DNA of 64,000 nt. Origin: Vanrija pseudolonga. Lineage: Eukaryota > Basidiomycota > Tremellomycetes > Trichosporonales > Trichosporonaceae. How positions within the stretch are numbered: position 1 is the first letter of the stretch; each line of letters starts with the position of its first letter. This document shows positions 29,449 to 33,120 of the stretch, in pieces. The stretch is from assembly GCF_020906515.1 (NCBI RefSeq), contig NC_085852.1:992001-1056000 (forward strand), read 5' to 3'. The notes below the pieces were generated by a model. That model worked only from the letters and a program-made list of their open reading frames with translations. It was not told the DNA's origin and did not search any database. The position numbers were made by a program, and so were the translations under genes.

Positions 29449-32400
29449 CTACGGCCCTCCCTGAGGCCGCCGCGACGCCCCCTGCTTCGCAAGCACTTCG
29501 CGGATCTTCATAATCCGGCTCGACTCATTCCATCCCTCCCAACCCTCTGGGTTGTTCGGCCCGAACTTCTTCGTCAGCGCGTCGAGCGTGGCGCGCACAG
29601 TTGTCTCGTCGGCGTTGGTCGTGCGCGCAAACGCCACGAGGATATAGTAGATGAGCTTCTCCGTGGGCTGTTGCGAGCGCGAAGCGTTTGCGGGAAGCCG
29701 GGCCGACAGGAATGAGTGGAACACGTCTTCGAGCGCATCAAGCGTCCAGCCGCCGAAAGACGGCAAAAATTCCGACCGGCGGGTGCTCCACACGCTCGTC
29801 AGCTGGCTCGGCGATCCAAAGTTGAGCCAGAGGGGAAAGGCGGACGTGGCTCCCCCTGCGGGGCCAGACGGCACCTCGCCGTACTTGGCAAAGCCGCGGA
29901 ACAGCCCAGTGTAATCGTGGATTCGCGGGACATGTCCGTCGTCGATCATCTCGCGGAGCACCTTGAGGGCCGCGACGAGGTCACCGCGCCATCCCAGCCC
30001 ATTCACCATCATTGGGTACGTGTAGCGCGAGGGGCGGAGGCGCGCAAAGTCGATGGACGAGATGGCGTCGTCGTCGGGAGGGGGCTGGTGAAACCGACTT
30101 GGGCGGGAACGCAGGCCGTTGTAGAGCTTGTACGCAGTCTCCATGTCGCCAGCTTTCACCCTCAGCCAGATGGCTGCGTTGACAAGAATCACCGCGTTGT
30201 CGGGGTCTTCGGTGACGCGCAGCGCTTTTGCCAGCTCGTCCACGACGGAGCGGGGGCTGGGGCCCATCCCGGCAGCGAGAATACGAGTGAGGTTGGCCCA
30301 GCTTCCGGGCTCGATGCCGGACGCGATCATTCGGTGCCAAAACTTGTCGTATCGTGGAATGTCCTTTGCCACGAGGCACAGATACAGCATGTGGTTGATG
30401 GAGACTTTGTACTCATGGAGGCGGACATCATCGTCGGGGACCTTTGGGAACCGGTGCTCAAAGTGCCTTTCAGCCTGGCGTAGATCCTTGTTCGTAAAGC
30501 TGCGGCGGTGACGAGCGGCAGACACAAACAGTGCCGCCTCCAGCCCATGAACAGCGGTGTATTCACGGCGCACAGTGTCCTTGAGCGCACCGGCAACTGT
30601 TTTCAGACGGTCGTTGGCGTCGCGGACGTGATAGAGGTGTCGCCTGTCCATCACGTGCATCGCTTTCGCAATCGCCTTTAGCTCGACTGGCGTGAATGAG
30701 TGACTCGTTGATGACAGATAAAGTCGACTAAAGTCGTTGAAGAGGTTTTCCGACGACCCAGGCGCCTGCTCGGTTATCTGGACGTGAATGTCGGAAAGCA
30801 TTGACGAACGTTGCTGGGGGGAGATGTGAGGTAGTGAGTATCGGTTCGAACCGGCTGCCGCGCGACGCTTTGGGAGAGGAGGAGGCGACGGTGGGAGCTC
30901 AGTGGTCAACCAGTCGTGGTGAGCCTGAACGTGAAACCTCGCAGACGTCGTGAACGATCTTGGGCGCGCGGAGAGCACCTGGAAGAAAGCCGATTGGGGA
31001 ATGTCAATGTTGCCTGCGAGTTTCTTGAGGCGTTTCTTTCCTTCCTTCTGCTTGTTGAGGTGCTTCATCTTGCGCTCGTAGTGGCCTCCGTACAGCCCGG
31101 CGGTGACGTCCTTGCGCATGGCAGACAGAGTCTCACGCGAGACGACCTTGTTTCCAACAGCGGCCTGAATGGACAGCTCGAACAGCTGGCGAGGGAGCAC
31201 CTCCTTGAGCTTCTTGGTCCAGACCCTTCCGATGGCGGGCGCGGCGGGGCGGTGGACGATCATGGCAAGGGCGTCAACAGGCTTGGCATTAAGCAAGATG
31301 TTGAGCTTGACGAGGTTGGATGCCTCGTATCCGGCTTCCTCGTAGTCAAACGATGCAAACCCCGAGCTCGCACTCTTGAGGTCGGAAAAAAAGTCGGTGA
31401 CAATCTCGGACAGAGGCAACGAGTACCGCAGGATGGCACGGTCAGTTCCTTCGAGGAACTTGTACTCGAGCTGGACGCCGCGGTACTTGGAACACAGGTC
31501 CATCATGTCGCCAATGTAGTCGTTGGGCACAAAGATTGTTGCGTTAACCATGGGCTCTTCGACGCGCTCAACCTTGAACCGCGTGTCGGTCACGTCGGGA
31601 AACTCGGCAGGGTTGGAGATGTACTCTTCTTTGCCGTCCCTGTACACGAGCTTGTACGGCACGGTAGGAGCAGTGACGATGACTTCAGAGTCATACTCGT
31701 CTTCGAGGCGCTGTCGGAACACGTCCATGTGAAGCGTTCCGAGGAAGCCGAGACGGAAGCCCTGGCCGAGGGCGGCGGACGACTCCCTTTCCACGGAGAC
31801 GGAGCGGTCGTTGAGCGTGAGCCTGTTGATAGCCTCTTCAAGCACCGTAAACTCGGCGCTGTCGGTGGGGAACACGCCGGCGTACACCATGGCCTTCATG
31901 GGCTTGAAGCCTGGCAAGGCGTCGACGCTCTTGTCGACATATGCGATCGTATCACCGATGTGCGCCTCTTCCGAGTTCTTCATGTTGCAAACCAGGTATC
32001 CAACCTGTCCCTCTCGCAAAGCGTCTACTGGCACCTCGTCTGGGTTGTTGATGCCGACGTCGAGGACGTCGTACTTCTTGCCAGTCTGGAGGAACTTGAC
32101 CTTGTCGCCCTTCTTGATCGACCCGGACATGACGCGAACTAAGGAGACGACGCCACGGAAACGGTCATAGCTGGAGGGTTAGGATAAAGCTCGTCGTGAC
32201 AACCTACAAAGTGTCAAAGACAAGAGCACGCAGGCGCTTGTCACTGTCGTCCCAGCGAGGTGGAGGCAGACCGTCGATGATCTGATTGAGCACATGCTCG
32301 ACGCCGAGACCGCTCTTGGCGCTGATCCGCATGTGGTCCTCCTTTGGCAAACCAAGCGAGCTGGCAATCTGCTCCGAAGTCTGATCGGCCTCGGCATGAG

Positions 32401-33120
32401 GGAGGTCGACCTTGTTGATGACGGGCAACAGGGTGAGGTTGGCCTCGAGCGCGTGGTGGAACACGGAGAGCGTCTGGGCCTGGATACCCTGCGTGCAGTC
32501 GACAAGCAGCAGGCCGCCCTCGCATGCTCCCAGACTGCGCGACACTTCGTAGCTGAAATCGACATGCCCCGGGGTGTCGATCAGGTTGATCAGGTACTTT
32601 TTGCCGTCAGTGTGCGTGTGGATAATCGAAACCGTCTGCGCCTTGACTGTGATGCCGCGTTCACGCTCGACCTTGAGTTTGTCAAGGAACTGGGGAGAGG
32701 ATTCGGGAGGAAGGGTGTTGGTCATCTGGCGGGTTAGTGCCTTCTGGTCAACAACACTCAACCCACCTGGAGCAGCCGATCCGCGAGCGTCGACTTGCCG
32801 TGGTCGATGTGCGCGATGATGGATAGGTTTCTGCGGTGTAAGTAGAGTCCACACGACCACACTCACCGTATCCTCTCCGGAGGGAATTGGGACATGTCTA
32901 TCTTTGTTCTCCGGCCATCTGGGCCCACGCCCTCGGTACTGGCTTTGGACGATGCGGCAAAGGCGCGCACTCCGGGCACGATGCCGCGATGGGGAAGAGC
33001 TATCGGTGTGGCCGATGTCGACGGCGTAAGGCTCACCCGCGATGCTGATACGAGAGGCCTGGCGCCCGGGCGCGCCGAGAGCGCCGTGAGCCGCGACAGG
33101 GCTCTAACTCTCCTCATCAT
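29449..33120 (-). CDS. GUF1: GUF1 (mitochondrial EF4/LepA GTPase) fused to a PPR-like protein
   Basis: Four exons encode roughly 1,185 residues. Residues 1-75 are a mitochondrial presequence ([19 protein letters not shown]). The GTPase follows: G1 [10 protein letters not shown]2 RERGIT, G3 DTPGH, G4 NKVD, G5 SAKSG, then domain II, the EF-G-like domains and the LepA-specific C-terminal domain ending [27 protein letters not shown], where GUF1 normally stops (about residue 680, near base 30970). Instead the frame continues without stop or intron for about 507 residues. These begin [14 protein letters not shown], itself like a mitochondrial presequence, and contain helical repeats resembling PPRs: [28 protein letters not shown] and [29 protein letters not shown]1 back-translocates or rescues mitochondrial ribosomes; PPR proteins bind organelle RNA. 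Two genes merged by stop loss is the likely origin. Confidence 0.88.

Follow-up and report, generated by a model that had tools for sequence, protein, structure and literature searches.

A single-frame GUF1-PPR gene of Vanrija pseudolonga and its relatives probably encodes an ancient tandem mitochondrial precursor

In the basidiomycete Vanrija pseudolonga, a 64,000-nucleotide stretch of contig NC_085852.1 (positions 992,001 to 1,056,000; hereafter the window, whose own numbering is used throughout) contains a gene in which the translation GTPase GUF1 (EF4, LepA) continues in frame into a protein of the pentatricopeptide repeat (PPR) type. The gene lies on the minus strand at 33120-29449 and has four exons, separated by introns at 32866-32831, 32766-32726 and 32207-32171 (36, 41 and 37 bases), which begin with GTGAGT, GTGGGT and GTAGGT, respectively. 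Exon 1 (32867..33120) holds the start codon, a putative N-terminal presequence in a region predicted to be disordered (residues 1 to about 70) and the start of GUF1; exon 2 (32767..32830) holds the G1 motif of the GTPase, AHIDHGKST, and exon 3 (32208..32725) the remainder of the GTPase domain. Exon 4 (29449..32170) encodes everything from domain 2 of GUF1 to its C-terminus, followed by the junction, a linker and the complete PPR tail, and closes with the stop codon at 29451-29449. The spliced product of 1185 amino acids is letter-identical to a public V. pseudolonga protein entry, P0002, named "GUF1". An open frame of 893 codons (32130-29449) runs uninterrupted across the usual end of GUF1, as a preliminary description of this DNA had stated. 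The openness of the tail is beyond chance, since none of 2000 shuffled tails stayed open and the other two forward frames contain 15 and 10 stops. When the 24.87-Mb assembly was searched with the tail and with the exon-4 part of GUF1, each half found a single match, the window's own, and no further copies.

The identity of the first half, proposed in the same description, was borne out by profile searches. The TIGR01393 lepA model matched residues 83-679 as a full-length equivalog with 785.6 bits (cut-off 533.9), and PF06421 (LepA_C) matched residues 572-678, at 30973..31293 on the minus strand, with 144 bits (cut-off 29.7; E 2.1e-42), ending where GUF1 normally ends. GTPase motifs are present (AHIDHGKST at residue 91, RGITV at 129, DTPGHVDF at 156, NKVD at 210 and SAKSG at 241). 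The Vanrija protein thus resembles GUF1/EF4/LepA in its full-length LepA architecture and GTPase motifs. It differs in its end: unfused GUF1 proteins among the matches listed stop a median of 9 residues past the PQxAF position (measured in 95 of 96 rows), whereas here 507 residues follow residue 678.

This tail of 507 amino acids has the length given in the preliminary description, but it spans residues 679-1185 and not 681-1187. Its PPR-like character was confirmed by PPR_2 (PF13041; 40.6 bits against a cut-off of 30, E 2.8e-10) and by TIGR00756 (40.8 bits against 20). PPR_2 recognizes a single stretch, residues 992-1041 (29884..30033, minus strand), and reached E<=0.01 in six of the nine fusion members scanned. 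Matches to toxic shock toxin (E 0.25 or worse) were regarded as chance. A structure model of the tail predicts an alpha-helical solenoid of 24 helices, with a predicted local distance difference test score (pLDDT) of 81.4, and in the full protein this PPR-type solenoid would occupy residues 733-1185 (29452..30810, minus strand). The solved structures nearest to the model in Foldseek were designer PPR proteins, with modest template modelling (TM) scores, 0.17-0.45 by query length among the 50 matches listed. The tail differs from PPR proteins in having one stretch only above the PPR cut-off and in these modest TM-scores. The physiological role of EF4 is still debated. In the excerpt of PMC8280776 consulted, GUF1 homologues are reported to act on mitochondrial ribosomes, and loss of EF4 in yeast to affect mitochondrial translation and cytochrome oxidase assembly. 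The PPR part would, we infer, bind RNA in the mitochondrion and serve the gene-expression pathway to which GUF1 belongs.

The layout is shared by at least 27 proteins, four of them partial (P0003, P0005, P0026 and P0125) and six from lgn or ena sources. A whole-protein search scored 7996 candidates and retained 3901 proteins at E<=1e-50, of which the best 120 were examined and contained 24 fusions. With the tail alone as query, four proteins were found in addition to that of the window, and in three of the four GUF1 sequence precedes the tail; a profile search contributed one further fusion (P0125). Twenty-one fusions could be assigned to organisms, five in Trichosporonales and 16 in Tremellales: Kwoniella (10), Cryptococcus (3), Vanrija (2), Cutaneotrichosporon (2), and one each in Cryptotrichosporon, Tremella, Naematelia and Dioszegia. 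The Cryptococcus proteins come from C. depauperatus and from two members of the genus without an epithet; we take this genus to belong to Tremellales, while the orders of the other fusion genera were looked up. Many of the organism-assigned fusions among the best 120 of the 3901 proteins are labelled simply GUF1 or LepA, so that a database user may easily miss the PPR half. Among the matches listed, GUF1 is unfused in Filobasidium (Filobasidiales) and in Phaffia and Mrakia (Cystofilobasidiales), with one row each, as well as in Calocera and Agaricomycetes. Outside Vanrija, gene structure was read from publicly available protein models.

A tree was built from the GUF1 parts of 38 of the 120 listed rows, leaving out those with partial GUF1 (P0003, P0005 and P0125). 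Its 24 fused rows and three unfused ones form a clade with support of 100/98, to which Filobasidium does not belong; sampling beyond the clade is thin, with one row of Filobasidiales and two of Cystofilobasidiales. The branch to Filobasidium is long (0.83), and support is weak (87/77 and 87/84) at the forks dividing the two orders within the clade. The three unfused rows inside the clade are two models of Cryptococcus neoformans and one of Kwoniella dendrophila. The fused label requires three changes on this tree, readable as one gain and two losses. Most simply, the fusion would have been gained once at the base of Tremellales and Trichosporonales, before the two orders split.

The preliminary description had read the start of the junction, whose sequence was recovered here as given (16 residues), as a buried mitochondrial presequence, and comparison of the fused proteins lends support to that reading. 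In most of them the GUF1 end VLSSRPR is followed by x-[FYL]-[SATH]-[ST], and 25 of the 27 fusions match R-x-[FYL]-[SATH]-[ST] inside the initial 18 residues of the tail, where shuffled tails lead one to expect 0.18 sequences. The pattern resembles the consensus for ICP55 action after the mitochondrial processing peptidase (MPP), given in the part of PMC8847149 seen as RX(F/Y/I/L)↓(S/A)(S/T). In V. pseudolonga the putative internal presequence motif comprises 14 residues, 677-690 (30937..30978, minus strand), and leads into a proline-rich, mostly predicted-disordered linker of residues 691-732 (30811..30936, minus strand). Across 26 sequences, the information per column was 3.88 bits for the last 40 residues of GUF1, 3.54 for junction residues 1-14, 1.9 for the linker and 1.96-2.52 for the PPR tail; P0020 of Kwoniella dejecticola was omitted because its annotated splice removes the motif. 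The junction is thus the best-conserved stretch outside GUF1, nearly at the level of GUF1 and far above the tail. Such tight conservation suggests more than a plain linker, which would not need a motif. Twelve of 17 proteins of the fusion group carry a slightly wider form of the motif, with I allowed, in the region of the N-terminal GUF1 presequence, and residues 1-63 of the V. pseudolonga protein, predicted to be disordered, contain ten R/K and one D/E. Around the internal site, the basic C-terminal helix of GUF1 contributes 13 K/R against 3 D/E in 48 residues. In a full-length structure model, residues 672-726 have pLDDT values under 50 and the predicted TM-score is 0.45; the site is thus predicted to be accessible and the two halves to be undocked, without a fixed contact.

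We propose, with a probability of roughly 0.78, that the gene encodes an ancient tandem mitochondrial precursor that is cut internally into GUF1 and a PPR-type protein. One mRNA would give a single chain, GUF1(EF4)-presequence-PPR, which the N-terminal presequence would carry into the matrix. MPP would then cut twice, after the N-terminal presequence and at the internal site R-P-R-S↓F; by the motif rule in the consulted part of PMC8847149, the second cut is predicted after S684, between 30955 and 30954 on the minus strand, and Icp55 would then remove F685. The products would be a mature GUF1 ending in ...VLSARPRS and a PPR-type mitochondrial protein starting with TTSARF.... The internal site was probably once the N-terminal cleavage site of a separate PPR gene, fused downstream of GUF1 before the Tremellales/Trichosporonales split, and the basic C-terminal helix of GUF1 may now stand in for the presequence helix. 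Cleavage of one translation product at an internal presequence, one of two outcomes foreseen in the preliminary description, is thereby the favoured mechanism, with the cut itself a prediction. Peptidases of the M16 and AMP_N families were found in the genome. P0006, homologous to the fused tails (BLASTP E 3e-35 to P0125 and 4e-32 to P0005), is apparently the only tail relative found that is unfused, and it carries the wider form of the motif near its own N-terminus (RVRMLATSAS, residue 53).

Several observations weigh against this proposal. A 26th sequence, P0013, shows K where the key R would be expected, and from P0020 as annotated the motif is missing. The N-terminal region of V. pseudolonga GUF1 misses the motif (RAFAA at residue 52), four of the 27 tails contain another match past the first 18 residues, and the wider form also occurs in 31 of 85 unfused outgroup GUF1 N-termini; being short and matched elsewhere, the pattern is by itself neither rare nor diagnostic. 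The fusion sequences are related, so that 25 of 27 does not count 25 independent events. Part of the conservation at the junction may belong to the GUF1 C-terminus itself, as SSRPR is kept in the unfused C. neoformans protein. The M16 and AMP_N matches are not specific to MPP or Icp55 and indicate that suitable enzyme families exist, no more. P0006 may have an upstream exon. Import, cleavage and the formation of two products are themselves deduced from sequence.

The other outcome foreseen at the outset, a bifunctional factor, is in our judgement unlikely; its halves would stay stably joined, and its PPR solenoid would tether particular mitochondrial mRNAs to EF4-engaged ribosomes. Such a factor would sit well with retention of the fusion through two orders and with partners that would both serve mitochondrial gene expression, and the annotated K. 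dejecticola form, without the motif, would be an uncleavable chain. The selective conservation of a cleavage-type motif, nearly as strong as that of GUF1, speaks against it, as do the predicted disorder of the junction, which leaves no fixed domain arrangement, and the annotation of C. neoformans GUF1 without a tail. We consider it scarcely credible that the fusion is an artefact of sequencing, assembly or annotation, or a lineage-private stop loss of the kind that the preliminary description had invoked between two neighbouring genes. Nothing was found in favour of an artefact, although public gene models of relatives can in principle influence one another; 27 proteins have the same layout, six of them from the lgn or ena sources, the window holds the junction in a single open exon, and the tree fits one gain. 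A private stop loss is rejected, since on the simplest reading the fusion is older than the split between the two orders.

Two products could also arise at the RNA level. If, near the junction, transcripts were alternatively spliced, kept an intron or came to an end, the gene would give GUF1 by itself, a PPR by itself or a fusion without the presequence. Models of C. neoformans and K. dendrophila that end at or shortly past the junction point in this direction. So does the K. dejecticola model, which jumps from AFFQ to AHSDP; the codons CAG GTG CTC in the window would permit an analogous in-frame removal of 165 nucleotides. This weak candidate exitron (30814..30978, minus strand; CAG↓GTGCTC ... 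CCCAG↓CAA) would delete the presequence, but its donor does not fit GTRNG[TCA], and we rejected it as a junction intron for want of consensus signals. When the coding strand of 31060-30600 was scanned for donors, branch points and acceptors, neither GTRNG[TCA] nor a CTRAY-plus-acceptor motif was found, whereas the three real introns of the gene begin with the donors given above. In V. albida and P0003 the linker can moreover be aligned without a change of frame. For Vanrija, splicing is therefore unlikely, and the intron near 30970 that the preliminary description had considered finds no signal in the sequence. A separate translation start for the PPR half was also rejected: the best candidate Met, in RK[ML]KHL, is replaced by Leu in 18 of the 27 fusions, present in eight and unread in one. 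Of the 26 fusions with enough upstream sequence, 15 have no Met in the span that starts 46 residues ahead of the GUF1 end and closes 11 residues past it, which makes internal initiation unlikely. With no conserved Met from which a separate PPR protein could start, we regard an origin of the two products at the RNA level as very improbable.

Some relatives depart from the layout. C. neoformans GUF1 (P0029; 693 amino acids, 31 member sequences) is annotated without a tail and ends in VLSSRPRK, and its length is that predicted for the MPP-cut GUF1 of its fused relatives (VLSSRPRx↓F). This suggests that the gene was re-split at the putative cut site in that species; a junction intron would be a serious alternative explanation. 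A second C. neoformans model, P0031, contains insertions resembling retained introns, which indicates that model quality in this species is mixed, yet it has the same VLSSRPRK end. A profile search for free-standing PPR orthologues returned P0013, P0009, P0017, the fusion P0125 and a PPR protein from EukProt transcripts, P0126 (33% identity over 8%). P0023 was not recovered even though its tail formed part of the alignment, so the lack of a free C. neoformans PPR match in this search is uninformative. In P0020, a protein model, AFFQ is joined directly to AHSDP around residue 602 and the internal presequence is skipped; the model may be wrong here, or a genuine splice may produce a fusion that cannot be cleaved. 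The P0028 model of K. dendrophila (732 amino acids) retains the presequence with some of the linker and ends before the PPR part, either a true truncation or a model error.

As a tentative extension of the tandem-precursor proposal, which we think doubtful, the arrangement could be a device for dosage and co-delivery, in which each imported chain supplies one EF4 and one mRNA-specific PPR factor together in space and time. Cleavage would be incomplete or regulated, a minority full-length form would carry the PPR arm with its bound mRNA onto EF4-engaged mitoribosomes, and the C. neoformans lineage would later have broken the gene at the cut site. If this were true, C. neoformans set beside its fused relatives would form a natural experiment on coupled versus uncoupled supply.

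With two separate domains in one reading frame and a conserved internal motif of the MPP/Icp55 type, the Vanrija protein has the layout of known tandem precursors. Its partner pair is new, and what is unusual is the strength of conservation of the internal site and the pairing of EF4 with a partner of RNA-binding type. Atp25 joins a ribosome-silencing-factor-like half to a half for ATP9 mRNA stability, again a ribosome factor with an mRNA factor, although its domains are not known to be related to those of GUF1-PPR. Rsm22-Cox11 and Etp1 of Schizosaccharomyces pombe involve other partners in another lineage. In the part of PMC8847149 available to us, which cites Friedl 2020, internal MPP cleavage is attributed to Arg5,6 by experiment and to Atp25, Etp1 and Rsm22-Cox11 by motif search. 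That text lists Atp25 among composite precursors, with an MPP site as well as an internal sequence resembling a targeting signal, and gives both types of motif for the composite mitochondrial precursors Rsm22-Cox11 and Etp1. A close parallel is Arg5,6 of Saccharomyces cerevisiae, in which, as proposed for Vanrija, one precursor gives two mitochondrial proteins by internal MPP cleavage (same part of PMC8847149). There, the products are two enzymes and cleavage has been demonstrated, whereas in Vanrija they would be a translation GTPase and a PPR protein, with cleavage predicted. No description of a GUF1-PPR fusion was found in the titles and abstract openings of the open-licence PMC papers listed by searches aimed at it. 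The gene ties EF4 to one partner of RNA-binding type, kept in a single precursor across two fungal orders, and so makes a concrete hypothesis on the mitochondrial process served by GUF1 testable. It also adds a well-conserved member to the small set of tandem mitochondrial precursors, with a putative internal cleavage site of 14 residues and natural variants.

Opposite GUF1, the plus strand of the window contains an antisense open frame of 408 codons (30916-32142), probably a by-product of GC-rich third codon positions. An open reading frame of the IF-2B family (28035-29111, plus strand; eIF2B-like, PF01008 E 1.3e-42) is convergent with the GUF1-PPR gene, so that another translation factor gene adjoins it. 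Upstream of and divergent from the GUF1 start lies a PALP pyridoxal-phosphate enzyme (33972-34886, plus strand; PF00291 E 6.1e-62), presumably cysteine-synthase-like, and a short promoter region may serve both genes.

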